This document shows, one piece after another, positions 38,372 through 63,104 of a stretch of DNA of 64,000 nucleotides. Both the position numbers and the translations under genes were made by a program. Below the pieces are notes generated by a model. It saw only the letters and a program-made list of their open reading frames with translations. It had not been told where the DNA came from and did not search any database. The stretch lies in IMG/VR virus record IMGVR_UViG_3300010396_000003, positions 88,426-152,425 of that record. The stretch is one strand, 5' to 3'. The first letter of the stretch is position 1; every line of letters begins with the position of its first letter. This stretch comes from a virus.

Positions 38372-38751
38372 CTTTGCGCCTTTCTTTGCTTTAATTTGCG
38401 CTCCAAGAGATCGATTCTGCGATACTGACCAATGCGTAGACACGGCCCTTGTGTGTCGTTACCTGTAAAACAGGCTGTCTCGCCACAGTTTATGTGGTGT
38501 GGAATACGTGCAAGTGCAAATCTCGCTTCGGCAATTCTTGCCTTAAGAATATCGATGTGGCGGTTATCGTTATAAATCTCTGCCGCACCGATACGGCAGG
38601 AATTGCATAGGGTTTTGGGTTGCCAGTCAGCATCAAATGCTGGCTCCAAGCGATCCTTGGAGCCACACATTTGACAGTAGTCCACCGGTTTCAGATCCTC
38701 CAGTGGAGTATCGCTATGCGACTGCGGCTTTTGTTTTTGCCTTCTTCCCAT
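38368..38751 (-). CDS. HNH-like/zinc-ribbon protein
   Basis: A 127-residue protein from ATG at 38751 (GAGG upstream). CQMCGSKDRLEPAFD and CNSCR form a CxxC...CxxC site spaced like the finger of recombination-endonuclease VII/HNH-type proteins, but no HNH active-site His is obvious. A basic helix (LKARIAEARFALARI) and C-terminal basic tail follow. It overlaps the end of parB. Confidence 0.45.
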   Translation of the reverse strand: MGRRQKQKPQSHSDTPLEDLKPVDYCQMCGSKDRLEPAFDADWQPKTLCNSCRIGAAEIYNDNRHIDILKARIAEARFALARIPHHINCGETACFTGNDTQGPCLRIGQYRRIDLLERKLKQRKAQR

Positions 38752-40246
38752 CAGCCTCGCCTTTCTTGACCTGCGTTTCCAATTTCGCAAGCTGCGCCTT
38801 ATTCATTGATGCTTTTTTGGCGAGCTCTCCCATTGGAAGTTTGAGAACCTTGGCGGTGGCTTCCATATTGTCGGCTTTGACGGTTTGGGACGAATAGAAC
38901 CATAGTTCCGAATCGGCAATCATGATTTGATACGTCCATTGGGGGATTTCTGCCGCACTGATTTTGGCAAGCATCTTTCTGACGGTAGCGCCGAAATCCT
39001 TTTCGACGTACTTCCCCTTGACGACGTCCCAACCCATGGCATTGCACAATCCTCGAGCCGTGTCATTGCTCAAGTTATCGATTGCCCAATCCAACACGGC
39101 GCGTTGCTGAACTTCGCCAATGTCGTATTTCGTTTTGGCGATTTCAGCAAAGACAAGACCGCGGCGCCGAATCTCTGTCTTGCGCTTTTTCTCGGCTTCT
39201 CGTTGCTTTTTCTGCGCTGTATCTGCCGATGGATCACGGTAGACCTGCCAATGGACCTTGCATTTCGTGTTGTCGCAGATACGGATGACCTGCCCAAGTT
39301 TTGCATTCTGTTTCTCATGGGCATGACCGACAACTTCGACAACAATGCCTTCGGTGGTGTCGTTGCATTTTTTGTCGGCAAGGACCCATTCAATTGCTCC
39401 CTTGGCTTTCACGCCGGCCCAGCCGCCAACGGTCAAATGAACCGCCTTGGGATGTGCGGCAAGCTGTTTTTCAAGAAGCACCTCGCACTTCTTGCCATAA
39501 CAGACATTGTCGGTACAGGTGTCGTTATCCTTGATGTCCGGAAACAGCATTGAATTTGCACCAGTGCGCTTCGGACATCCGGTACACGCCCCGGCAGCCG
39601 GTAGTAATTCTGCATCCTTGATGTCGAATGGTGCGTCCTTTAGTCGTCGGTGAAATTGTTCTTGGATTTGGTATGCCAATTGATGTGGCGAGCCAAATGT
39701 ATCTCCGCGATCTTCCTTGAGCCAGGTAAGAATTTCCTTTTGGTGTTCTGGTTGTTGCCGCGCGATCAGAATCGCATGGGATAGCGTGAACTTATTAGTC
39801 CGAAACATTTTTTGTGCTTCGGAAATAAGGTTCACAAGGACCAAGCGCATACGAATGTAGGATTCCGACTTCCCGACGCGCAGACTGATGTTCTTTGGGT
39901 CTCCTTGAATACGTTGATATCCAAGTGCTTCATCTAGGGGATGAAGGTCCGCGCGTTGAAGATTCTCGATGTTCTGAATTTCTGCAATTTCTGCCTCGTT
40001 CAGATCATCGCGGTTTAGACACGGTACAGTCTTGAGACCAGCTAAACCGGCCGCGCGCCAACGCCGCTCACCAGCGATAATGCGGAAAGTTCCAGAGCCA
40101 TTCTGTGGAATGACCAGAATCGGCTGGAGGATTCCGTGCGTTTTGATTGTGTCCGCGAGTTCGCCCATCTGCTCTTTATCGAACTGCTTTCGCGGATTGT
40201 TTGGATCAACCGAAAGATTACCTATCGGAACTTCAATTAGATTCAT
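38714..40246 (-). CDS. parB: ParB/Srx-family partition protein
   Basis: A 510-residue protein. N-terminal ParB domain: DPNNPRKQFD (about 14-23), HGILQPILV (37-45), IIAGERRWRAA (about 56-66, the GxRRxxA CTP/nucleotide motif) and NIENLQRADL. A KorB/HTH-like middle (LRVGKSESYIRMRLVLVNLI) is followed by a Cys-rich segment (ACTGCPKRTGAN, CTDNVCYGKKC) and a long Lys-rich C-terminal half. ParB proteins segregate plasmids and plasmid-prophages, but large phages also use them as regulators. No parA neighbours it here. Confidence 0.85.
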   Translation of the reverse strand: MNLIEVPIGNLSVDPNNPRKQFDKEQMGELADTIKTHGILQPILVIPQNGSGTFRIIAGERRWRAAGLAGLKTVPCLNRDDLNEAEIAEIQNIENLQRADLHPLDEALGYQRIQGDPKNISLRVGKSESYIRMRLVLVNLISEAQKMFRTNKFTLSHAILIARQQPEHQKEILTWLKEDRGDTFGSPHQLAYQIQEQFHRRLKDAPFDIKDAELLPAAGACTGCPKRTGANSMLFPDIKDNDTCTDNVCYGKKCEVLLEKQLAAHPKAVHLTVGGWAGVKAKGAIEWVLADKKCNDTTEGIVVEVVGHAHEKQNAKLGQVIRICDNTKCKVHWQVYRDPSADTAQKKQREAEKKRKTEIRRRGLVFAEIAKTKYDIGEVQQRAVLDWAIDNLSNDTARGLCNAMGWDVVKGKYVEKDFGATVRKMLAKISAAEIPQWTYQIMIADSELWFYSSQTVKADNMEATAKVLKLPMGELAKKASMNKAQLAKLETQVKKGEADGKKAKTKAAVA

Positions 40247-42586: not shown

Positions 42587-43369
42587 TTATGCTCCTGTAA
42601 AAAGATTTTTGTTCTTCATTTGTTTGCAATACGTCGCATACTGTTTCGGATATTCGTGGTAGGTCTTGCCATCGAGCTCTGTTCCCATTTCAGTTCTGAC
42701 AGCGGCAGATTGCTTAAAAAAGAAGGCCATATCGCGCGCGCGGCAAATCGTCAAAATCTTACGCGCCCAGTCATGTTCCATTGGTCGAAAGTTGTGGGAG
42801 TTATTGCCACTTTCGCCTCCCACAATAAGTTGATGAAATCCGTCAACATGTTCTTCCAGTTCAGGACAAATGTCTTCAAGTAACGGTTCGAGCGATGCAA
42901 ACCTGACTGCGGCAGGAATGTTACGCAAAACATCCATACGTTTCAAGTGCTTCTTAAGTCCAACACTTGTTCCCAACCACACATTTGGATAGCCACTTCC
43001 CCAATCCGCCGGCAATCGCTTTTCGATTAACTGTGGCCGCTTGGTCAGAATCTGATAGATCAGGTTTGGCGTGTCATGAATAATCTGCCAAGCCTCCGGA
43101 CGCCACGCATCGGCTTGCTGAATAAAAAAGTCGGAGAGAGAACAAGTAAAAACCAAATCGCAGCGGTTTGCGCTGGCTGCCTCTCTCTGCCAACGCTTTG
43201 GATCGTTCCATGTCTTTGTGCGCGTTATAGTATCGAATGATCCTTTTCCGCGTGTGCGCTCAATCAAAACTTTTGCGTAACACTTGTCACATTCCTCGCT
43301 TACAACGCGACAACCAATCCAGAAATTCAACGTGCGGTTAGCCCATGAAATACGGGTGCTATCTCCCAC
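42587..43369 (-). CDS. Phage Gp37/Gp68 family protein (DUF5131)
   Basis: A 260-residue protein. TRISWANRTLNFWIGC, then CDKCYAKVL, FVFTCSLSDFFI region, ILTKRP and VNVWLGTSV-like NVWLGTSVGL, ASLEPLL, and IVGGESG match the Gp37/Gp68 (PF07505) family in order. The early Cys cluster resembles a radical-SAM-type site. Found in many phages and prophages; its reaction is not established. The gene has its own promoter upstream. Confidence 0.85.
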   Translation of the reverse strand: MGDSTRISWANRTLNFWIGCRVVSEECDKCYAKVLIERTRGKGSFDTITRTKTWNDPKRWQREAASANRCDLVFTCSLSDFFIQQADAWRPEAWQIIHDTPNLIYQILTKRPQLIEKRLPADWGSGYPNVWLGTSVGLKKHLKRMDVLRNIPAAVRFASLEPLLEDICPELEEHVDGFHQLIVGGESGNNSHNFRPMEHDWARKILTICRARDMAFFFKQSAAVRTEMGTELDGKTYHEYPKQYATYCKQMKNKNLFTGA

Positions 43370-43472: not shown

Positions 43473-43850
43473 CTATTCTGCAAGAGAAAAGATGCGGGTC
43501 GGTGGTGTCTTTTCTTCTGCCTTTAAGAGACGGTCTGCTATTTCCAGATGCGCAAGATAAATGCAATTACAATCGCGTCCTGTCGTATCAAGTATTCCCT
43601 GACGGAAATTCTCTACGTGTCGCGGTCCGCGACGGTCATGAATTTCGAATGCCAGCATCATGATTTCTTTGTTTACGAGTTCCGTTGGCTGTATTTCCTG
43701 TTCTCGTAGTTTCTTTTCGAGTTTACGGATACGGTTTTCGAGTTTATAGATATGGTTCTCTGCATAACGCAGCAGGTACGAAGCACACTGAATCGTGTGC
43801 CAATCTATCTCGTGGGGTGAAAACTTCTTTGCACAGAATGGGCATAGCAT
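43473..43850 (-). CDS. Zinc-finger coiled-coil protein with TRIFSLAE tail
   Basis: A 125-residue protein. The start MLCPFCAKKFSPHEIDWHTI is a C2H2-like knuckle (CPFC...H...H). A coiled coil follows (about 30-52). The last ten residues (EKTPPTRIFSLAE) form the C-terminal tail also seen on four other proteins here. Coupled to the methyltransferase-like gene upstream. Function unknown. Confidence 0.55.
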   Translation of the reverse strand: MLCPFCAKKFSPHEIDWHTIQCASYLLRYAENHIYKLENRIRKLEKKLREQEIQPTELVNKEIMMLAFEIHDRRGPRHVENFRQGILDTTGRDCNCIYLAHLEIADRLLKAEEKTPPTRIFSLAE

Positions 43851-43851
43851 G

Positions 43852-44493
43852 TCATTGATCCAATGTTAGGATTCTGCTTGGCTGTTGTTCATTCTTAGGA
43901 GAAATGATTTCACCGTTTTCATTGGTCGGTTCCACGATCATTCCATAATAATCGACTCTAAGAAGTCTGATTACGTAGCCAGATGTAATTTTGGCTGTTG
44001 GGCATTGCTGCGTTAATTGGCACCGATCGCCGTACTCCATGAGATCAACCTTACCTGGCACATCCCAGTGTTCGGGAATACCCATGGCGCGCTTCATTGC
44101 TTTACTGATCGGCATCTTGCCGGCGCCGTAGGTTACTTTGCCGCGAGTTAAAAATACGGCCGTCTTGTACCGAATGAGCGGTAAGAGCTCACTCCATAAT
44201 TCCCAAGGGTCGCCATAAGTATCGATGTCAATAGCGTTGTAACGGCTTATGTCAAGTGCCTTAATAATGCGCGGAGTTATCTTGACGCGGATCGTGCCAG
44301 GTTGCCGATCGTCTTTATCGACAGGCGTATAACTTAAAACATTTAATTGCTGGCGCAGTCCCTTCCAGATATGACCTTCACCGGCAAATAGATCCAAGAC
44401 CCGCAGTGGTTCAAGCTGCGCTTCTTTGATCACCTTGTACCGGAGGTTCTGCTTGTCCATCAGGCTTCTGTTGTCTGTCTTTTTTGTGCCCAT
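43852..44493 (-). CDS. SAM-dependent methyltransferase-like protein with SRILTLDQ tail
   Basis: A 213-residue protein. VLDLFAGEGHIWKGLRQ (about 33-49) is a class I SAM-binding loop, and NAIDIDTYGDPW (about 86-97) is the strand 4 region where the DxDxYG pattern recalls DNA or tRNA methyltransferases. Ends in a flexible Asn/Pro-rich linker and PSRILTLDQ. It overlaps the preceding HTH gene by 83 bases. Starts at 44493 or 44460 are possible. Confidence 0.55.
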   Translation of the reverse strand: MGTKKTDNRSLMDKQNLRYKVIKEAQLEPLRVLDLFAGEGHIWKGLRQQLNVLSYTPVDKDDRQPGTIRVKITPRIIKALDISRYNAIDIDTYGDPWELWSELLPLIRYKTAVFLTRGKVTYGAGKMPISKAMKRAMGIPEHWDVPGKVDLMEYGDRCQLTQQCPTAKITSGYVIRLLRVDYYGMIVEPTNENGEIISPKNEQQPSRILTLDQ

Positions 44494-52429: not shown

Positions 52430-52682
52430 AACTAGCCGTAAAGGCAGTCAGTGGTCGATTGGGCTTACCATCATCCCGGACTGGACAAACCTTGCTCTGT
52501 TGACGATAGAAATGTAACGCGGCGACACCATCGTTAAACTGCATCGCCAAATCCTCATTGTTCGTGACGGTGAGGATTCCGATTCCACGTTCATCGGTAT
52601 CCGGCTGGAAAGAAACGACGAAATTTCCTATTTCTGGGCGGTTAAAACCGCCAGCGTCTACGATTAGGATTGTGTAGCTCAT
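52392..52682 (-). CDS. Hypothetical protein
   Basis: Ninety-six residues from ATG at 52682 (ATGA overlap with the ligase stop). SYTILIVDAGGFNRPEIGNF starts an alpha/beta fold resembling small ATPase-like or regulator domains, but no motif is complete. It may form a unit with the ligase, since they are coupled. Confidence 0.5.
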   Translation of the reverse strand: MSYTILIVDAGGFNRPEIGNFVVSFQPDTDERGIGILTVTNNEDLAMQFNDGVAALHFYRQQSKVCPVRDDGKPNRPLTAFTASFAKKGTHVVSAI

Positions 52683-53779
52683 GCGGCAATCCCGGCCTTG
52701 TAGATAATTTGGTCCACGGTACAATCTTCGGCCAAGACATCAGAACGAATCGACTTCATGCGCGCCTGAACAAGGTGTCGGCCGGCGCCGCCGTAAAGAT
52801 AATGCACTTCAATGACTGAGTTGATAGAGACGGTCGGCTTTCCGTTTAGCGAAACGTGTCCCACTTCCACCATCTTGCCTTGCGCGTCGTAGAGCCCGAT
52901 CGCGGCGGAATTATGTCCCTTGTCGCCAATTCGAACGACAATTGCCGAAAGAGACTTGATGAATTTGAACTTCTTATGGTTGCCACTGTTGCCGGGACGG
53001 TATGCAGCGTCGCGTCGCGCAAACACACCTCCCTCGTAGCGATGTTTTTCAAGCGCCGCAAACCCTTCTCGTTTAGCTTCGGGGGTTTCCCAGGTTGGAA
53101 TGAGTGTGACGTGGCGACCGCTTGGCGGAATTAACTTTTCCAGTGCCCTGTAGCGTTTTTCGTAGGTAAGAGTGGAGAGATTCTTGCCGTTAAGACGGAG
53201 AAGATTGTAGGCAATGAAAATATTGCCGACGTGCTCGCCGCAGACAAAAAAAGTCTTCGCTTTGATCCTGTCCAGTTCGTAGACGATTTCCGAGTTTAAG
53301 GCTCCGGAGAGCGTTCCGAGTTTGTTGAAGCCAGCATACGTTCCATCGGCTCGCTTTTCGATTTGCCGAAACTGCCCGTCAGCTTTGAGTTGGAGCCAGT
53401 AGTTGGAATTATTCATATACGGTTCAATGCTGGCTACCGGAATCTCGTCCAGATCCTCAATGGGAAAAGGCGTGCGAAAGTTATCCGTCTTGTTAGAGGG
53501 AACAAGCCCGGCGCGCGCCTCAATAACAGTAGCCATTTTGCCCTTCGGCGGCTCATATCCTTCAATGGTTTTACGATGAACAAGAGAATCGAAGACTTTC
53601 CTGGCTTGTTCGGCCGAAACGCCGCTGATTTTTGTGCCTGTTTGCAGTTTGGAGCCGCGGCGCCCGAATTGGAAGTTCACCGCAAAACCAGTTGCAACTG
53701 GCACAATTTGGATGTGATATTCCTTGTCGCTATTCTTGGCGGAGTTCTGGTAGTAAAGACTAATCGAAGTCGCGCTCAT
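52679..53779 (-). CDS. WGR-domain ATP-dependent DNA ligase
   Basis: A 366-residue protein. Residues 1-80 are a WGR-like domain (FQFGRRGSKLQTG), known from PARPs and some bacterial ligases for binding DNA ends. The ligase core starts at K132 in LKADGQ, motif I of nucleotidyl transferases, with GEHV (motif III region) and GGVFARRDA later; a C-terminal OB-fold part (VVRIGDKGHNSAAIGLYD) closes the clamp. It seals nicks or ends after ATP-dependent adenylation. With Ku upstream it makes a minimal end-joining pair. Confidence 0.8.
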   Translation of the reverse strand: MSATSISLYYQNSAKNSDKEYHIQIVPVATGFAVNFQFGRRGSKLQTGTKISGVSAEQARKVFDSLVHRKTIEGYEPPKGKMATVIEARAGLVPSNKTDNFRTPFPIEDLDEIPVASIEPYMNNSNYWLQLKADGQFRQIEKRADGTYAGFNKLGTLSGALNSEIVYELDRIKAKTFFVCGEHVGNIFIAYNLLRLNGKNLSTLTYEKRYRALEKLIPPSGRHVTLIPTWETPEAKREGFAALEKHRYEGGVFARRDAAYRPGNSGNHKKFKFIKSLSAIVVRIGDKGHNSAAIGLYDAQGKMVEVGHVSLNGKPTVSINSVIEVHYLYGGAGRHLVQARMKSIRSDVLAEDCTVDQIIYKAGIAA

Positions 53780-53967: not shown

Positions 53968-54291
53968 CTAACTTCTATCGCCAAGGTCGTTCAACTCGCT
54001 ATATTTATCGTTAAGCAGTCCGAAAATGCGTTGTAGTTCGATATTTGCAGGTGTCGGTACGTCCTGCAAAATTTTCATGACCAAGTCGATATCGACAGCA
54101 TTTAGGCGTAGGGTTGCGGTTTCAGAATCCACGAGTCGATTGAGAAGTCCCCAAACGATTCCACCGGGCTTTGCCTGTTCACGACATTTGGCGTCGTAAT
54201 GTGCGCCAGCCGCCGACATTAGCATGTTGCATTCGGCGCGCGTGAATTCGATCTCTGCCAACGGAATGAGAATAACGTTTTGAAGTTTCAT
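53968..54291 (-). CDS. Hypothetical protein
   Basis: A 107-residue helical protein (VDIDLVMKILQDVPTPAN) with TRAECNMLMSAAGAHYDAKC in the middle. Its ATG overlaps the Ku stop as TAATG, so it is translated with Ku and may assist it. No family recognised. Confidence 0.5.
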   Translation of the reverse strand: MKLQNVILIPLAEIEFTRAECNMLMSAAGAHYDAKCREQAKPGGIVWGLLNRLVDSETATLRLNAVDIDLVMKILQDVPTPANIELQRIFGLLNDKYSELNDLGDRS

Positions 54292-55130
54292 TACGCCGCA
54301 GCCTTTTTCTTCTTGGCTGGCTTTGTGGCTGGAATCGGTGTCGGCTTTACCTCTGGCTTTTTCTTGTTAACAGCCAACGATGCCCTGAGTGCTTCCATGA
54401 GATCGACAGTCGTACTGCTCTGTGTGAACTGAACCGGAGGCGGAGGCGTCACCGATTCATCCATCTTCGACGCGATCAGTTGCGTCACCCGCTCTTGAAA
54501 TTCGTTCGTAAATGTTTTCGGCTGGAAAGCCGAGGACAGGCTTTCGACCAACTGTGCGCCCATCTTGATTTCTCCCTGACTGAGCGGCGCAGCATTCAGA
54601 TTGTCAAACTCAGGTACTTCCGCCACCTCGCTTGCGTACCAGAGGAAATGCAGCATGAGACCGTTTCCCTTGGGGCGAATGAGCACCAGGTTCTCGCGGT
54701 TGGATTTCGTCAGTTTGGCAAGTGCCACACGCCCGGTTGCTTCGAGAGCCTTGGCCAACAGGCTATACGGCTTGCGGCCAGCGTCTTCTGGCAGCATGTA
54801 AAACGATTCTGCCAGGTAGAGCGGGTCCACATCTTCGGCAAGCACGCAATCGGTGATTTCCATGACTTTTTCGCTCGCCGGAGCCATCGAATTGATTTCG
54901 TCGTTCGTGAGGATCACGTACTTGCCGCCAGTTTCGTAACCCTTAACCGTATTCTTACTGTCCACCTTCTCATTGCAATGCGAACAGAAGTACGGTTTGT
55001 TCAGTGGCGTGTGACATTTATCGTGAAGACTCTTGAAGTCAATCCGATCGTCGCGAGCCCCGACGTTGAGATAGATGGGAATCGACAAAAGACCAAATTG
55101 CAGGGCACCCTTCCAGACTTTAGTTGCCAC
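54291..55130 (-). CDS. ku: Ku DNA-end-binding protein
   Basis: A 279-residue bacterial-type Ku. VWKGALQFGLLSIPIYLNVG at the start is the family signature; then FKSLHDKCHTPL, CSHCNEKV (zinc-like pair) and YYLxPxx-like SFYMLPEDAGRKPYSLLAKA, and LVLIRPKGNGLMLHFLWYA. The C terminus is Lys/Pro/Ala-rich, as in Ku proteins that bind DNA through basic tails. It forms a ring on double-strand ends and recruits a ligase. Phages with Ku are known, but Ku plus its own ligase is less common. Confidence 0.92.
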   Translation of the reverse strand: MATKVWKGALQFGLLSIPIYLNVGARDDRIDFKSLHDKCHTPLNKPYFCSHCNEKVDSKNTVKGYETGGKYVILTNDEINSMAPASEKVMEITDCVLAEDVDPLYLAESFYMLPEDAGRKPYSLLAKALEATGRVALAKLTKSNRENLVLIRPKGNGLMLHFLWYASEVAEVPEFDNLNAAPLSQGEIKMGAQLVESLSSAFQPKTFTNEFQERVTQLIASKMDESVTPPPPVQFTQSSTTVDLMEALRASLAVNKKKPEVKPTPIPATKPAKKKKAAA

Positions 55131-56522: not shown

Positions 56523-57602
56523 TTATTCATCCAGCGTGAGAATGCGTGACGGTTTGGACGTAATAAGCGAAGACAATGCGCTGTCGATTGTGTCGAATCC
56601 GTACTTCACGTAGGCGCGTACATCTTCGTCGGAACGCAATAGGTCTGCGTTCGTGTCTTTCAAGAGAGACTTCGCCTTGTCGACCAAGACTTTCAGTTGC
56701 CGATCCTCCGTGATGTTGCGCACGTCGAACGTCTCCAGAAATTCGTTGATCTTCTTAAACGAATTCTCTTTAAAAATTTTCGTTTTGCCGTCTTCCCCAG
56801 GAGTAAGACGCTCGCGCAGATGCTCAATCATTTCAGCCATGTTCTGGCGAAGCATTTGCTGAATGACCCCGCGTGCCTTTTCCCATGATGCGGCTGTTTT
56901 CTGGATTTCTTGTTTCCGGAGTTTTTCGCTCAACTTTTGCCGGCTTGGTGGCATGATTTCCATGAAGCGCCACGTTAACCGGAAGGATTGGCGAATGACG
57001 TCCGGTGGCGGATATTGCGACTTGTCAAATAGGTTCTTGAGACGATGCCGTGCCTCTTTGATCAAATCGTCATAGTTATCGACAAGTTTTTTAACCAAGG
57101 CATCGCGCTTCTTGGCATATTCGGTCAGCTTGGCATCGACTTCATCAGCCAATGCTTTTGGAAGCAGGTAGATGCCCTTCTTGATCGTGAACGGCAAAGC
57201 CAGGCTGTCGATATACCGCCGTACTTCGCCGTCCAGAGAGGTGATGGCTGTCAATTCTTCGGCGTCCCACAGTTTCTTCGAGACTGCTAGCCATTCCTTG
57301 TCGGACGTTTTGTTGTCTTCGGTCAATTCAATGTTCTCGGTATCAACCTTGCGGTGATTGCCGATCGCGGAAAAGGTGAGAACGAAGATGACTGTCTTTT
57401 CCTCCATTTCCTCGATGCTGGCAATGTGCGCCGGCGGCAGCTTGATTTTCTTGTCCTGCTTCGGCAGTGCTTTTTTGGGTAGTTCTGGTTTCTGGCTCAG
57501 CCTCGCTTCGCCTCGCGGCGGACCGGCCGGACCATACTTAGAGCGGATCGTATCCCAGGCACGTTTTGCATTAGCAGAACGCTCTGCATGTGAAAGCGCC
57601 AT
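56523..57602 (-). CDS. DUF3150-like phage protein with SRILTLDE tail
   Basis: A 359-residue protein, helical throughout. WLAVSKKLWDAEELTAITSLDGE, the LPFTIKKGIYLLPKALADEV segment, and the charged helix after it fit the DUF3150 family, which often accompanies MoxR-type ATPases in phages and plasmids. The N terminus (LSHAERSANAKRAWDTIRSK) is a separate basic helix. The last residues KPSRILTLDE are the shared tail. Function unknown. Upstream lies the AAATCCAAG element. Confidence 0.6.
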   Translation of the reverse strand: MALSHAERSANAKRAWDTIRSKYGPAGPPRGEARLSQKPELPKKALPKQDKKIKLPPAHIASIEEMEEKTVIFVLTFSAIGNHRKVDTENIELTEDNKTSDKEWLAVSKKLWDAEELTAITSLDGEVRRYIDSLALPFTIKKGIYLLPKALADEVDAKLTEYAKKRDALVKKLVDNYDDLIKEARHRLKNLFDKSQYPPPDVIRQSFRLTWRFMEIMPPSRQKLSEKLRKQEIQKTAASWEKARGVIQQMLRQNMAEMIEHLRERLTPGEDGKTKIFKENSFKKINEFLETFDVRNITEDRQLKVLVDKAKSLLKDTNADLLRSDEDVRAYVKYGFDTIDSALSSLITSKPSRILTLDE

Positions 57603-59500: not shown

Positions 59501-59654
59501 AACGACCAGAGGTTGATTCGAGGCGTTCTAATTCTGCCAATTGTTTCTTGGCGTCGTTTCTGCGTTTCGTGACAAAGTCGATTTCCCGGTCTATTTCGTC
59601 GTAAAAGAACTGCCCAACGAAGTACCAGAGCAGTTTTCCGACAAGGTGGCGCAT
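59499..59654 (-). CDS. 51-residue membrane/coiled-coil protein
   Basis: ATG at 59654 with AAAGGG upstream. RHLVGKLLWYFVGQFFYDEI forms an amphipathic or membrane-associated helix, then a charged coiled coil (TKRRNDAKKQLAELERLE). It overlaps the end of the 59591-59914 gene in another frame by 64 bases; one of the two may be shorter than drawn. Confidence 0.45.
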   Translation of the reverse strand: MRHLVGKLLWYFVGQFFYDEIDREIDFVTKRRNDAKKQLAELERLESTSGR

Positions 59655-59914
59655 GGTTGACCCTTTCCGAGTAGATTCTTCTTAATCCACCCAACTTCCG
59701 CGTTTAAAGCATCGCCCCTGAGCCGGAAACCGGTCATTACGGGTCCGGAAACCGGTGTTAGGTCTACGGTCCAAGTCCCATTGTCCGCAGGCTCTACATG
59801 ACTCGCACGGCGGGTTTTGGTGTTGCCCTCTTCAAACAATGGTATAAGGGCGTCGTCGTAGATGGTTGTAATGGTGCCGTCTGGCGCGATATCCACGATT
59901 AGTTCATCGTTCAT
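59591..59914 (-). CDS. Hypothetical protein
   Basis: A 107-residue protein from ATG at 59914 (GAAAGGA upstream). ELIVDIAPDGTITTIYDDAL starts like DUF2997 and similar small strands, but the rest diverges (HVEPADNGTWTVDLTPVSG). The last 20 residues overlap the next gene. A diverged DUF2997 relative is possible, given the real one at 60085. Confidence 0.45.
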   Translation of the reverse strand: MNDELIVDIAPDGTITTIYDDALIPLFEEGNTKTRRASHVEPADNGTWTVDLTPVSGPVMTGFRLRGDALNAEVGWIKKNLLGKGQPCATLSENCSGTSLGSSFTTK

Positions 59915-60092
59915 TTTGAATCCTTTCGATCGGAGCGACACCGACTTGAGCGATTAATCGGCACGTCCAACAGATGTAGAAAGACGGCGCGGTGCGAACT
60001 GGAAATTCCTTAGTCAGAAGATCCAGTTCGCAATTACAAGTCGGGCAGTGACTTTTGGGTGCGGATTGAACGATGTAGGTGCTTTTAGCCAC
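59904..60092 (-). CDS. Zinc-ribbon protein
   Basis: Sixty-two residues: HCPTCNCEL and YICWTCRLIA give a clean ribbon. Ends overlap both neighbours by a few bases, so it is part of the DUF1257/DUF2997 operon. Function unknown. Confidence 0.55.
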   Translation of the reverse strand: MAKSTYIVQSAPKSHCPTCNCELDLLTKEFPVRTAPSFYICWTCRLIAQVGVAPIERIQNER

Positions 60093-60270
60093 GCGCCTTT
60101 ACCTGTGCTGGTTGGGCGAGATGCATTTCTGGTGTAGCTGTTTCTTGGAGTTTCTTGCCCAAAGCTTCTTCCAGATCCTTCGTGGCAGCTAAACACGCTT
60201 TGCCGCGGAAGCCTTTGGTCGTCACTTGCGCCTGTCCATCCGGCGCGATATCCACGATTATTTCTAACAC
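60085..60270 (-). CDS. DUF2997 protein
   Basis: Sixty-one residues from GTG at 60270 (GAGGTGA upstream). EIIVDIAPDGQAQVTTKGFR, then GKACLAATKDLEEALG, is a full match to DUF2997 (I..xDG.v....GF.G..C......LE..LG). It is encoded beside DUF1257 and a Ycf46-like ATPase in cyanobacteria and elsewhere; no biochemical role is proven. Confidence 0.75.
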   Translation of the reverse strand: MLEIIVDIAPDGQAQVTTKGFRGKACLAATKDLEEALGKKLQETATPEMHLAQPAQVKARG

Positions 60271-60308
60271 GATTCACCTCGAGTTTTTTGATTCGGCTTG
60301 TGCCGGGC

Positions 60309-60767
60309 TCAGCTTGCTTTCGTATATTTGAGTTGAACGTGACCATTTGGCAGGCGAGATTGAACCAAGCGATATCCCGGTGGCGATTTCTTTTTGGCGA
60401 TATTCACTTGGTATCCCTGTTTAAGCAGGTCTCCATTCTTCCCGACTGCGGCTTCCAGACCATAGCCGCCTGAATAGAAATCCCACAGCAATTGAAAGCC
60501 GGCGCGACCGTCGCGGCGCTTAACGACTCCCACTTCGTAAGAGCCGCGCTGATAAGCGGGATGGGTTTGAGGCACGCGAATAGCGTGATCGCACTTACCG
60601 AGGTCTTCTTCCTTAAATCCGTCCGGCAACGGATAATCGCCGACAGAATGGCCCCACCACTTATACGTCTTTTGACCCTGGACGAGCTCTAGTCCAAGCT
60701 CTTGACAAGTCTTAGTAAGCGCGTCCAGGTCTTTTACTTCAATTTCCATAGTAGCTACATGGCTCAT
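60309..60767 (-). CDS. DUF1257 (Ycf35-like) protein
   Basis: A 152-residue protein. MSHVATMEIEVKDLDALTKT at the start and CQELGLELV follow the DUF1257 signature; YEVGVVKRRDGRAGFQLLWD and the C-terminal QVNIAKKKSPPGYRLV complete it. In plastids and cyanobacteria this is Ycf35. It usually co-occurs with DUF2997 and an AAA+ protein, as here, which suggests a shared complex. Confidence 0.8.
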   Translation of the reverse strand: MSHVATMEIEVKDLDALTKTCQELGLELVQGQKTYKWWGHSVGDYPLPDGFKEEDLGKCDHAIRVPQTHPAYQRGSYEVGVVKRRDGRAGFQLLWDFYSGGYGLEAAVGKNGDLLKQGYQVNIAKKKSPPGYRLVQSRLPNGHVQLKYTKAS

Positions 60768-60768
60768 T

Positions 60769-61140
60769 TCATTCCTCCAAACTGAAAATGCGTTTCGATA
60801 TTATCGTGATTGTAGTTTCCGAAATTTTAACCTGTTCCGGTTGTAATTTCTTTTCGTGTTCTATCCTCTCCCGCTCAGCACGATGTTCCATTTCTTCCTT
60901 ATGCTGTTGTTGGAGAAGACGCATGCGTTCCTGTTCCTTGATCCGCAAACGTGCTTCCTTTAATTTTAACTCCTTTACATAAGCGATGTGTTCGCAATTT
61001 CGTCCGCGCGCTGATTCTGGCGGTAATCCAATCTGTCCACAATCGCACGCCCACGTCCCATCTTCGAATTGCGAAACGTTGGCAATGCGAATTGGCGGAT
61101 AGCCGATAGGTACTTGCCAGGTCTGGACGCCTATAGCCAT
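60769..61140 (-). CDS. SWIM-type zinc-finger protein with KRIFSLEE tail
   Basis: A 123-residue protein from ATG at 61140. WACDCGQIGLPPESARGRNC plus EH is the CxCx(n)CxH SWIM signature (about 30-50). A long charged coiled coil (about 55-105) follows, then KRIFSLEE. The last codons contain GGAGGA, the ribosome site of the next gene. SWIM fingers bind DNA or proteins. Partner of the AAA+ ATPase by context. Confidence 0.6.
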   Translation of the reverse strand: MAIGVQTWQVPIGYPPIRIANVSQFEDGTWACDCGQIGLPPESARGRNCEHIAYVKELKLKEARLRIKEQERMRLLQQQHKEEMEHRAERERIEHEKKLQPEQVKISETTITIISKRIFSLEE

Positions 61141-61147
61141 GTTGAGG

Positions 61148-61477
61148 TTAGTCCATAATGATAATGCGGGTCTTTTTCTGTGTAAACGGTGTAATGACCG
61201 ATGCCGATACGGTGACCGGTTCGGATGTTGGTTGCTGTTTTGAACGCCCTGTCTGCTTAACTGTCGGTTGTGGCGTCTGTGTATGTGCAAACACTTCCGG
61301 TTCTTCGTTTTGGACACCAAGGATGTGTTTGCATGGACCGCGAGGTCTTGCTTTCTGAAAGATCCAGCCGCCACAAGCGCAGGCCCAGGAATGATCATCG
61401 TACAATGTCACCTTGTACGATTTAGACGAGTCTGTGTGGCTGGCTACATCCCATTGCATTAATTTGTTTTTTGCCAT
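61148..61477 (-). CDS. SWIM-type zinc-finger protein with TRIIIMD tail
   Basis: A 109-residue protein. VTLYDDHSWACACGGWIFQK followed by RGPCKHILGVQ gives CxC...CxH (about 33-54). The second half is a flexible Thr/Pro/Gln linker ending KKTRIIIMD, a variant of the shared C-terminal tail. It is paralogous to the next gene. It starts one base after the AAA+ stop. Confidence 0.6.
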   Translation of the reverse strand: MAKNKLMQWDVASHTDSSKSYKVTLYDDHSWACACGGWIFQKARPRGPCKHILGVQNEEPEVFAHTQTPQPTVKQTGRSKQQPTSEPVTVSASVITPFTQKKTRIIIMD

Positions 61478-61478
61478 T

Positions 61479-63104
61479 TCAGTTCACGTCTTCCTTGCTG
61501 AATTTACGGGTTGATTTGCCGGGGATGATCGCACCAACGACGACAATGCCTTCCTGCTTTTCTTCTTCGATTGTCTTTGGCGCTTCATAGTTACCGGAAG
61601 TGGAAGCAGAAATGTAATTACCATCCGCTTCTCGACGCAACGCTTCCAATTGCTTTGCCTTGCTTTTGGCAATCGGAACAATGTACTTCGCCGCTTCGAT
61701 CAGTGTGCGATTGAAATCGTGTGCCATTTCACAGCACGCTTGGATTTCTGAACCGGTCCAGAGACGATCATCGGGTTTCTTCTGCTTGGGCAAATTAAAT
61801 TTGCCCATGTGGATTCCCCAAATCACATCGCGCTCTTTACTGCTTGGCAAATCGAAAAAGAATTTGCCAAACTTGAACCGCCGTAACAGTTCCGGTGGAA
61901 GGTTGTCGATATTGTTGCAGGTCGCAATAAAGAAAGCACGTTCCTGCGAGACCGCTTCGACAACTTTAAGGGCAAGCCGGATATTCGCGTTACTTTCGCC
62001 AACGAGCGATCCTTTCATATCGCCCAAGTTCATCTGAATAACAGGAATGCCGGCTTCATTCCCGACAGCTTTTGCAATTTCGGTTTTGCCGACGCCACCA
62101 GGACCCAATAGCAAGATGCCTTTGGCTTTCTTGTCCTGCATGAAGGTTAACTGCGCTTTGAGCATTTCTTGTGTAACACCGCTTAGGTCGGAACCCGATC
62201 CGGCCATATCCTTGTCGATTTCGTCTTGAAAGACGAATGCTGCCGGACGGTTTGGGTTAGTATCCTTGATAACTTCATTCAAAAATGATTTGATGTTTTC
62301 CAAACCACCGATATCCGAAAATCTTTCTCCGCCGCGCCAAACCGCAAGACCTGGTGTTTGTTCGATTTGCTTGCGCTTGCGCTCATACATTGAATCAATA
62401 TCGAGGCCGTTGCGCGTAATCGACATTGCCGTTACTTGATCCGCCGGAAACGCCGACAAACCAGCAAGTGCATCGACGGCACGTTTCAGGACTTCCTCTG
62501 TCGGTTCATTGGCACCGGCATCTTTATGCATCTGTGTAACGATTGCCGCCAACTGGTCACGATTCGGAAGCGGTTCATCTAAAACCAGGACGTCATTAGC
62601 CAGTTCTGGTGGAAGTGTAATGTCGGGGCAGAGAAACACTACCGTTGCCCCGCGCTCCTTGACCGCATCACGTAAATTCCAGATCGCCTGAATGAATGTT
62701 GGGTCGGCCGTATTACCGCCGAGGAATCGCTGAGGATTAATCATATAAAGGACGCCAAACTTGGCAAGTCTGCGCCATGCCCGGATCAAAACTTCAGTCG
62801 GGTTGCAAAGGATGTTCGGTTCTTCTCCCTTATTCCGGTCGATCCACGTCTGCACGTTCAACTCACCTGGCGACGGCTGAGTCTTATCGTTTACAATCTT
62901 TGGAAAAAGATTCAGTCCAACAGCACCGTTGACGACATCCCATACGATTAACGGCGTCTCGTTTCGTTTGTTCTTTTTATCGATATCCAAAACAATCAGA
63001 GCCGTCTGTTTGATTGTGGATGATGGGTCTGGCGTTCGAATCACGATCAGCGGAGTACTAACCTTACGTGCCGCTGCGAATTGCTCGATAAATGATTTTG
63101 CCAT
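61479..63104 (-). CDS. Circularly permuted AAA+ ATPase (Ycf46-like)
   Basis: A 541-residue protein. Its N-terminal ~250 residues (TPLIVIRTPDPSSTIKQTAL, PLIVWDVVNGAVGLN) resemble Ycf46. In the ATPase part the Walker B-like FVFQDEID (290-297) and GVTQEML lie before Walker A LGPGGVGKTE (332-342), sensor 1 IATCNN (393-398) and LLRRF (about 407-411). Canonical AAA+ proteins have Walker A first, so this domain is circularly permuted. It likely remodels proteins or nucleic acid together with the SWIM and DUF1257 proteins. The AAATCCAAA element lies before its start. Confidence 0.75.
   Translation of the reverse strand: MAKSFIEQFAAARKVSTPLIVIRTPDPSSTIKQTALIVLDIDKKNKRNETPLIVWDVVNGAVGLNLFPKIVNDKTQPSPGELNVQTWIDRNKGEEPNILCNPTEVLIRAWRRLAKFGVLYMINPQRFLGGNTADPTFIQAIWNLRDAVKERGATVVFLCPDITLPPELANDVLVLDEPLPNRDQLAAIVTQMHKDAGANEPTEEVLKRAVDALAGLSAFPADQVTAMSITRNGLDIDSMYERKRKQIEQTPGLAVWRGGERFSDIGGLENIKSFLNEVIKDTNPNRPAAFVFQDEIDKDMAGSGSDLSGVTQEMLKAQLTFMQDKKAKGILLLGPGGVGKTEIAKAVGNEAGIPVIQMNLGDMKGSLVGESNANIRLALKVVEAVSQERAFFIATCNNIDNLPPELLRRFKFGKFFFDLPSSKERDVIWGIHMGKFNLPKQKKPDDRLWTGSEIQACCEMAHDFNRTLIEAAKYIVPIAKSKAKQLEALRREADGNYISASTSGNYEAPKTIEEEKQEGIVVVGAIIPGKSTRKFSKEDVN

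Follow-up and report, generated by a model that had tools for sequence, protein, structure and literature searches.

A Ycf46-type AAA+ ATPase with an internally transposed Walker B segment, and a C-terminal tail common to its partner proteins, in a clade of phages

The window, a 64-kb stretch of an IMG/VR record, encodes a Ycf46-type AAA+ ATPase in which strand β3, carrying the Walker B motif, and helix α3 have been moved from the gap between α2 and β4 to a position before β1. The rearrangement is an internal segment transposition in which the catalytic residues are retained, as is, by prediction, the overall fold. It arose a single time, at the base of a large clade of phages. Several otherwise unrelated partner proteins share a short C-terminal tail that probably serves to attach them to the motor. 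The five genes that the first-pass annotation had recognized here (the ATPase, two SWIM-type proteins, DUF1257 and DUF2997) are all present on the minus strand. The features, in coordinates of the window, are the following.

61479–63104, minus strand: Ycf46-type AAA+ ATPase, 541 aa (Pfam AAA, E=5.7e-17; transposition test; AlphaFold2; Foldseek)
62340–63104, minus strand: D1 of the ATPase, a degenerate AAA-like domain without Walker A/B, residues 1–255 (AlphaFold2 α/β order)
62124–62243, minus strand: transposed segment of the ATPase, residues 288–327, β3 (Walker B, D294/E295) and α3, before β1
62082–62105, minus strand: Walker A of the ATPase, GPGGVGKT, residues 334–341
61914–61922, minus strand: sensor 1 of the ATPase, TCN, residues 395–397
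61878–61880, minus strand: R409 of the ATPase, candidate arginine finger by its position
61148–61477, minus strand: SWIM1, 109 aa, CxC...CxH, C-terminal tail TRIIIMD (family matches)
60769–61140, minus strand: SWIM2, CDC...NCEH, C-terminal tail SKRIFSLEE, counted as 123 aa from an internal ATG, the full 209-aa ORF overlapping SWIM1 (matches the SWIM1 family, E=1.9e-15)
60309–60767, minus strand: DUF1257 (Ycf35-like), 152 aa (PF06868 at family level)
60085–60270, minus strand: DUF2997, 61 aa, GTG start (Pfam PF11211, E=1.4e-15)
59904–60092, minus strand: CxxC...CxxC protein, 62 aa, overlapping the DUF2997 stop (homologues in loci L011 and L013)
59591–59914, minus strand: small protein of the APDG...YDD...RASHVEP family, the third cassette member
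56523–57602, minus strand: DUF3150 protein, 359 aa, C-terminal tail SRILTLDE (Pfam PF11348, E=4.4e-10)
43852–44493, minus strand: 213-aa protein with a methyltransferase-like LDLFAGEG motif and no Pfam match, tail SRILTLDQ (strict tail scan)
43473–43850, minus strand: 125-aa zinc-finger-like protein (CPFC...H...C), tail TRIFSLAE (tail scan, sequence)

The acidic Walker B segment VFQDEIDK precedes Walker A in the chain, as the first-pass annotation had observed, and sensor 1 and the Arg-finger region are found at their usual places after Walker A. No acidic motif occurs at the usual Walker B position. Against a profile of normal-order relatives, residues 290–327 of the window ATPase align to positions 356–394, and residues 326–387 to positions 293–354. 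Returning the segment to its canonical site converts four out-of-order matches, the best of 92 bits, into a single match of 303 bits that spans 3–542, the full chain; the standard AAA profile spans just part of the protein. The same move raised the score by 147–227 bits in 60/60 proteins of the test set, which comprised the 60 testable relatives, against an average of +10 for random moves. In the profile order, α0 and the C-terminal lid are unmoved and a single internal segment is displaced. A circular permutation of the whole of D2, as the ATPase had initially been described, is ruled out because both domain ends stay in place. The circularly permuted P-loop GTPases RsgA and YlqF are likewise P-loop NTPases with an altered motif order; in these proteins the permutation affects the whole domain, whereas the phage ATPase keeps its ends and has one inner segment moved.

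The AlphaFold2 model of the ATPase is confident (pLDDT 91.2, pTM 0.85) and arranges D2 as β3-α3-β1-α1-β2-α2-β4, with the strand at residues 289–293 and the helix at 310–324. Structure prediction, proposed earlier as a check, thus did not return the standard AAA+ order. A Foldseek search relates the whole chain to the tandem D1–D2 of p97/NVL over about 600 columns (E~1e-13), and the best viral fold matches are phage proteins named ycf46, with TM values of 0.55–0.64. Residues D294, E295, G334, G337, K340, T395, N397 and R409 are invariant among 52 permuted relatives. The residues of Walker A, Walker B, sensor 1 and the Arg finger are therefore all present, but the AAA+ chain order Walker A–Walker B–sensor 1 is not kept, since Walker B comes first; by homology, the protein is classed as a rearranged rather than a standard AAA+ ATPase.

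The permuted order is common to about 60 records, with identities down to 36%, and is found at 40% identity in the ATPase of Tunturi_3, an isolated Acidobacteria phage. A chimeric assembly, a frameshift or a misread second motif that conceals a standard order has next to no credibility: the record is metagenomic, and we found nothing else in favour of such an artefact. Chance or misassembly is excluded by the recurrence of the permuted order, which matches one moved segment, in an isolate genome as well as in some 60 independent records, and also by the missing acidic motif at the normal Walker B site and the confident model. The permuted ATPases form one clade (support 100/96) that is present in 100% of bootstrap trees, which establishes a single origin for the transposition.

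The ATPase belongs to the Ycf46 type in having a degenerate D1 and a catalytic D2 that are homologous across the full chain; no curated Ycf46 profile matched in Pfam or NCBIfam, and this assignment was made through homologues on cyanobacterial plasmids. It resembles Ycf46 (the Slr0374 type of cyanobacteria and plastids) and the normal-order phage homologues, including those of JP1, L338C, Corndog-type mycobacteriophages and Pseudomonas phage SM1, over the whole chain, and many of these also share the DUF1257/DUF2997 neighbourhood. It differs from them in the location of β3-α3 before β1, in an Arg-finger region that lacks the GRFD spacing, and in having DUF3150 as a near-constant partner. The tandem AAA domains recall p97/VCP and NVL; in p97, however, the order is standard and both domains bind nucleotide, whereas D1 of the window ATPase is degenerate. 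A plasmid operon of Candidatus Manganitrophus, ATPase-DUF1257-DUF2997-DUF3150-RASHVEP, contains the same five families in one row. Its DUF3150 ends in RPKRKIRIL, and its ATPase has the normal order and is placed, with moderate support, immediately outside the clade of permuted proteins.

DUF3150 is the most constant partner of the ATPase, being encoded in 59/62 permuted loci, and it also accompanies the normal-order sister ATPase on the Candidatus Manganitrophus plasmids. The window protein scores 39.8 bits with PF11348 (cutoff 24.9) and is modelled by AlphaFold2 with a pLDDT of 90. Its fold provides no function, because Foldseek returned no PDB match below E=0.5, and the literature searched on DUF2997, on phage DUF3150, on permuted AAA proteins and on MoxR together with SWIM and WGR gave no information about function. 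DUF3150 is also the middle gene of MoxR/CobS-type ATPase-DUF3150-VWA(DUF2201) operons in phages and Burkholderiales plasmids, where it likewise adjoins an AAA+ ATPase, although one of another AAA+ class and with a VWA/metallopeptidase partner. The permuted loci are not members of this MoxR-VWA chaperone group: their ORFs include neither MoxR nor VWA homologues, and DUF3150 alone is shared.

This distribution raises the alternative that the ATPase and DUF3150 replace the MoxR-VWA pair as a virion-assembly chaperone, a possible role that we nevertheless regard as unlikely. MoxR-vWA, with or without a metallopeptidase, has been proposed to act in virion assembly (PMC7824862), in jumbo phages and a two-tailed archaeal virus, and genes next to normal-order relatives of the ATPase encode a virion protein in Acidianus tailed spindle virus and a baseplate protein on a Treponema plasmid. 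However, the module in the window is distant from the structural genes and lies amid Ku, DNA ligase-like and ParB-like genes, and the tailed proteins are of zinc-finger, SWIM, WGR and methyltransferase-like types rather than virion proteins. The genome position of the module gives no clear hint of an early or a late function.

Both SWIM proteins contain the CxC...CxH motif; SWIM1 reaches 15.2 bits in Pfam (E=0.016), below the cutoff of 19.6, and SWIM2 has no Pfam match. DUF2997 is above its cutoff (57.3 against 24.1 bits). DUF1257 is assigned through its family, in which 19/26 aligned members match PF06868 (best 4.8e-11) and the window member itself does not. The neighbourhood of ATPase, DUF1257 and DUF2997 is conserved, as the first-pass annotation had held: a duf2997-ycf35-fed7 cluster is found in cyanobacteria (PMC4284462), and the gene set occurs on cyanobacterial plasmids as well as in phages. 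Its view of the module is correct in that DUF1257 and DUF2997 are present, and incomplete in that these occur in about half of the permuted loci (29–31/62) and that the more constant DUF3150 lies outside the interval it had delimited. The RASHVEP family is found in 27/29 permuted loci with DUF2997 and in 0/33 without it. DUF1257, DUF2997 and the RASHVEP family thus constitute an optional cassette. Many virus records are fragmentary, so that absence from a locus is not proof, and whole-record searches of 29 cassette-less records located DUF1257/DUF2997 genes in no more than two or three.

A C-terminal tail, R-x-[IFL]-x-[LF]-[DE], terminates DUF3150 (39/59), SWIM proteins (11/19) and ATPases (17/63), is found in 0/31 DUF1257 and 0/29 DUF2997 proteins, and has a background of 1.2–1.4% on other ORFs; the patterns were written after examples had been seen, and counts inside one family are not independent. 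The tail described by the first-pass annotation is real, but a strict scan of the whole 152-kb record finds it on five proteins of the phage and not on two. Its arginine is invariant in DUF3150 (R353, 45 sequences) and conserved in 50/52 ATPases (Arg533). By a looser motif, DUF3150 carries the tail in 44/59 cases with a Ycf46-type partner, against 0/9 homologues examined from MoxR-VWA operons, a sample that was mostly from Burkholderiales. Phages with a normal-order ATPase show a comparable ending, basic and hydrophobic, on the product of the next gene downstream in 5/6 cases. The WGR protein of a Trichormus plasmid has no tail, and identification of its 353-aa neighbour as DUF3150 was not supported by Pfam.

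The tail is independent of the DUF1257/DUF2997 cassette, being found in 24/29 loci with it and in 20/30 without it. This persistence points to the ATPase as the tail receptor and makes DUF1257 or DUF2997 less likely in that role. The tail might instead be a sorting signal used more generally in these phages, for example to direct proteins into the capsid, to mark them for a processing protease or to bind another hub protein, of phage or host; the ATPase would then be one tagged protein among others. Tailed genes 18 kb from the module (43473–44493) and a tail on the ATPase itself are compatible with this, as is the low model confidence at the ends of the ATPase (516–541) and DUF3150 (350–359), which is expected of a free signal. 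Against it, the tail tracks the Ycf46-type partner and similar tails recur beside normal-order ATPases; this explanation, although it carries some weight, is improbable.

On balance, and with moderate confidence, we favour a transposed Ycf46-type remodelling motor to which adaptors are recruited through the tail. The most secure of the proposed steps is an active ATPase that would assemble into rings as other tandem AAA proteins do, D2 forming the catalytic ring and D1 an inert one, and would handle polypeptide via the LVG pore loop of D2. DUF3150 may be the core adaptor, the same helical protein being flanked elsewhere by a MoxR-type ATPase and a VWA protein. The tail, on a flexible end, would be a docking peptide for DUF3150 and for zinc- or nucleic-acid-binding clients (SWIM, zinc ribbon, WGR, methyltransferase-like) onto the ATPase or onto a subunit next to it. 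The adaptor SspB is tethered to the AAA+ motor ClpX by a short C-terminal peptide, basic and hydrophobic, that is carried on a flexible linker, and docking of the phage tail may work in an analogous manner, with no homology claimed. The DUF1257/DUF2997/RASHVEP cassette could be an optional regulatory layer, the least secure of these steps. The whole would then act, as a chaperone or a remodelling motor, on phage proteins that handle nucleic acids or on virion proteins.

Such a motor could also serve host takeover, remodelling or inactivating complexes with which the host carries out transcription, replication or defence, the targets being picked by SWIM and zinc-ribbon adaptors. The fast-evolving, varied adaptors around a constant ATPase/DUF3150 core and the adjoining DNA-transaction genes are in line with this role, which we consider doubtful, as related gene sets also lie on bacterial plasmids, which is not specific to takeover. 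Returning to the tail-recruited remodelling motor, we tentatively extend it to an AAA+ fold rebuilt by internal segment transposition together with an RxIxL tail code that recruits swappable adaptors to Ycf46-type motors, perhaps in cyanobacteria and plastids too, with a DUF3150 adaptor shared with MoxR-VWA motors.

To our knowledge, the order of the AAA+ core has been treated as fixed across known AAA+ clades, and no description of a rearranged AAA+ family was found in the literature searched, mostly papers available without subscription. Some 60 phage proteins that break this order yet keep all catalytic residues show the tolerance of the fold. For Ycf46, Ycf35 and DUF2997, we know of only broad phenotypes. 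According to work cited in PMC7496141, carbonic anhydrase activity and the use of CO2 are both affected when Ycf46 is lost. The shared tail provides a testable handle on these three genes, which are kept in cyanobacteria and plastids.

The module lies in the final 64 kb of the virus record (152,425 bases) and forms a minus-strand row running downward from position 63104. The ATPase, SWIM1, SWIM2, DUF1257-like and DUF2997 genes of the first-pass annotation were all present on this strand at the correct coordinates.

Gene row of the module, in order
61479–63104, minus strand: Ycf46-type AAA+ ATPase, 541 aa
61148–61477, minus strand: SWIM1
60769–61140, minus strand: SWIM2, 123 aa, starting at 61140, inside the 209-aa open frame rather than at its first codon
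60309–60767, minus strand: DUF1257-like
60085–60270, minus strand: DUF2997
minus strand: 62-aa CxxC protein
59591–59914, minus strand: RASHVEP, a small family named in the present analysis
minus strand: two unrelated genes
56523–57602, minus strand: DUF3150

Close to the ATPase module, a Ku gene (Pfam, E=2.7e-37) adjoins an ATP-dependent DNA ligase-like gene (PHROG 114, E=1e-5) at 52679–53779 and 54291–55130, a putative phage-encoded end-joining pair; in mycobacteriophage Firecracker, Ku is likewise near an ATPase of normal motif order. The genes at 38714–40246 and 42587–43369 encode a ParB-like protein (PHROG 6218, E=5e-34) and a putative relative of the Gp37/Gp68 phage family, homologues of which are present in seven permuted loci.

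In the ATPase REARRANGEMENT, the Walker-B segment VFQDEIDK lies about 40 residues ahead of Walker A (GPGGVGKT), as the first-pass annotation had noticed; this order is termed permuted here. Against a reference profile of 17 relatives with the usual motif order, the native protein matched in four out-of-order pieces, the best single piece scoring 92 bits.

Matches of the native ATPase to the normal-order profile
Piece 1: residues 5–284, profile 3–284
Piece 2: residues 326–387, profile 293–354
Piece 3: residues 290–327, profile 356–394
Piece 4: residues 388–518, profile 394–542

When residues 288–327 were placed after residue 387 in silico, for scoring only, a single 303-bit match spanned profile 3–542. 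The gain was 147–227 bits in 60/60 testable proteins; random moves of an equal-length piece gained a mean of 10 bits, but the best of them gained 200. Because moving 288–327 back restores one profile match, with a gain in every protein, we conclude that a single segment, strand β3 plus helix α3, was transposed ahead of β1. The circular permutation proposed earlier was discarded: both the part of the chain that precedes the domain core and the C-terminal lid have kept their positions.

An AlphaFold2 model built on 52 relatives (pLDDT 91.2, pTM 0.85) places the elements of the catalytic domain in the chain order β3 (289–293), α3 (310–324), β1 (328–333), α1 (340–351), β2 (355–358), α2 (370–386) and β4 (390–396). 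In the model, residues 1–255 form a second α/β domain devoid of nucleotide motifs, and the final 26 residues are disordered. The whole chain matches the tandem D1–D2 of p97 and NVL (E ~1e-13, TM ≤0.48); among viral proteins, the closest structural similarity is to three from phages that bear the name ycf46 (TM 0.55–0.64). D294, E295, G334, G337, K340, T395, N397 and R409 are invariant among 52 permuted ATPases, from which a working ATPase is predicted. At position 339, where Walker A has its final glycine, 23/52 proteins carry alanine (GPPGAAKS), 1/52 serine and the others glycine; alanine at this position is also found in MoxR ATPases.

Successive searches yielded about 60 records with the permuted order: the isolate Tunturiibacter phage Tunturi_3 (Finland), IMG/VR contigs, and two contigs binned with Armatimonadota and Patescibacteria MAGs, respectively. 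Relatives above ~36% identity are all permuted, and those below ~27% with readable motifs all have the normal order. In a maximum-likelihood tree of 74 rows, brought to a common register beforehand, all permuted proteins cluster together (support 100/96; 200/200 bootstrap trees). The tree shows a single origin of the permuted order; the branching of the nearest normal-order sisters is uncertain because of long branches.

Among 62 permuted loci, DUF3150 occurs in 59, DUF1257 in 31, DUF2997 in 29 and RASHVEP in 27. DUF2997 never occurs without DUF1257 (Fisher p 2e-15), and the three small genes therefore constitute a cassette. RASHVEP is linked all-or-none to DUF1257/DUF2997. In whole-record searches of 29 records with cassette-less loci, several longer than 90 kb, one record proved to contain both DUF1257 and DUF2997, and two others held traces of them. 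Normal-order ATPases also have DUF1257/DUF2997 neighbours, in Rhizobium, Agrobacterium, Rhodobacter and Aeromonas phages, an archaeal spindle virus, and plasmids of cyanobacteria, Rhizobium and Manganitrophus. The Manganitrophus row (normal-order ATPase, DUF1257, DUF2997, DUF3150, RASHVEP) likely represents the ancestral state, only the ATPase order having changed thereafter. Such neighbourhoods are already known from cyanobacteria (duf2997-ycf35-fed7; PMC4284462), and a stress- and CO2-related phenotype of Ycf46 is cited in PMC7496141.

RASHVEP (window 59591–59914; relatives' loci L098 7547–7801 and L005 10152–10520) has no match in Pfam and an APDG start resembling DUF2997; similar genes adjoin DUF2997 in Rhizobium and Aeromonas phages. 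DUF2997 of the permuted clade (window 60085–60270; L011, L012, L013, L021, L030, L038, L048) shares a [KT]PE[MYFW] motif and has its own C-terminal motif, [VI][KR]xR[GA], distinct from the tail of other module proteins.

That tail, counted across families as C-terminal R-x-[IFLV]-x-[LFM]-[DE], ends 39/59 DUF3150, 11/19 SWIM and 17/63 ATPase proteins, 0/31 DUF1257 and 0/29 DUF2997, and 1.2–1.4% of other ORFs on either strand. Its arginine is invariant in DUF3150 (R353, 45 aligned proteins) and present in 50/52 ATPases (R533). A stricter motif retrieves exactly five proteins from the whole 152-kb record: SWIM1, SWIM2, DUF3150, a zinc-finger-like and a methyltransferase-like protein. In other records the tail is carried by, among others, a WGR protein (L052) and zinc-ribbon-like proteins (L021, L025; weak Pfam matches). 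Its presence does not follow that of the cassette: 24/29 loci with the cassette have it, and 20/30 without. Most simply, it would be recognised by the ATPase itself or by a protein constantly accompanying it. Small SWIM proteins lacking the tail lie ~2–4 kb upstream of the ATPase in L011 (3140–3364), L012 (3369–3593), L013 (2201–2422) and L021 (3361–3675). Directly 3' of the normal-order ATPase in L004–L008 and L099, a 210–240-aa protein with no match in Pfam ends in RKRRLRLS, ARRAVKL, RNRKLKL, RGRKITI or RRRALDL, and is probably the tail-bearing adaptor of these phages.

The motors found next to DUF3150 are of two kinds, Ycf46-type and MoxR-type ATPases. In Synechococcus phage MinM2 and the eight plasmid loci examined, its homologues adjoin or lie near a VWA-like gene, and nearly all of them immediately follow a gene of MoxR type or one labelled 'ATP-binding'. 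By a looser motif, the tail is absent from DUF3150 of MoxR-VWA operons (0/9), in contrast to 44/59 at permuted loci (p 3e-5, for sequences that share ancestry). Tunturi_3 gp96 (L003 11621–12649), annotated as an HNH endonuclease, is the DUF3150 homologue of its module, and that annotation looks wrong. For MoxR–vWA pairs with a metallopeptidase domain, described in jumbo phages, a role as chaperones of virion assembly has been proposed (PMC7824862). Among the ORFs of permuted loci, no homologues of MoxR or VWA were found. As rivals to the remodelling-motor reading given below, the module may act in virion assembly or in host takeover.

A literature search, conducted mostly without subscription journals, returned no description of the transposed AAA+ core, of DUF3150 in phages or of the tail; the DUF1257/DUF2997 neighbourhoods are the known part. 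We propose that the ATPase would assemble into a ring and work as a remodelling motor, DUF3150 being its core adaptor, and that SWIM, zinc-ribbon, WGR or methyltransferase-like proteins may dock on it through the tail as exchangeable adaptors or clients.
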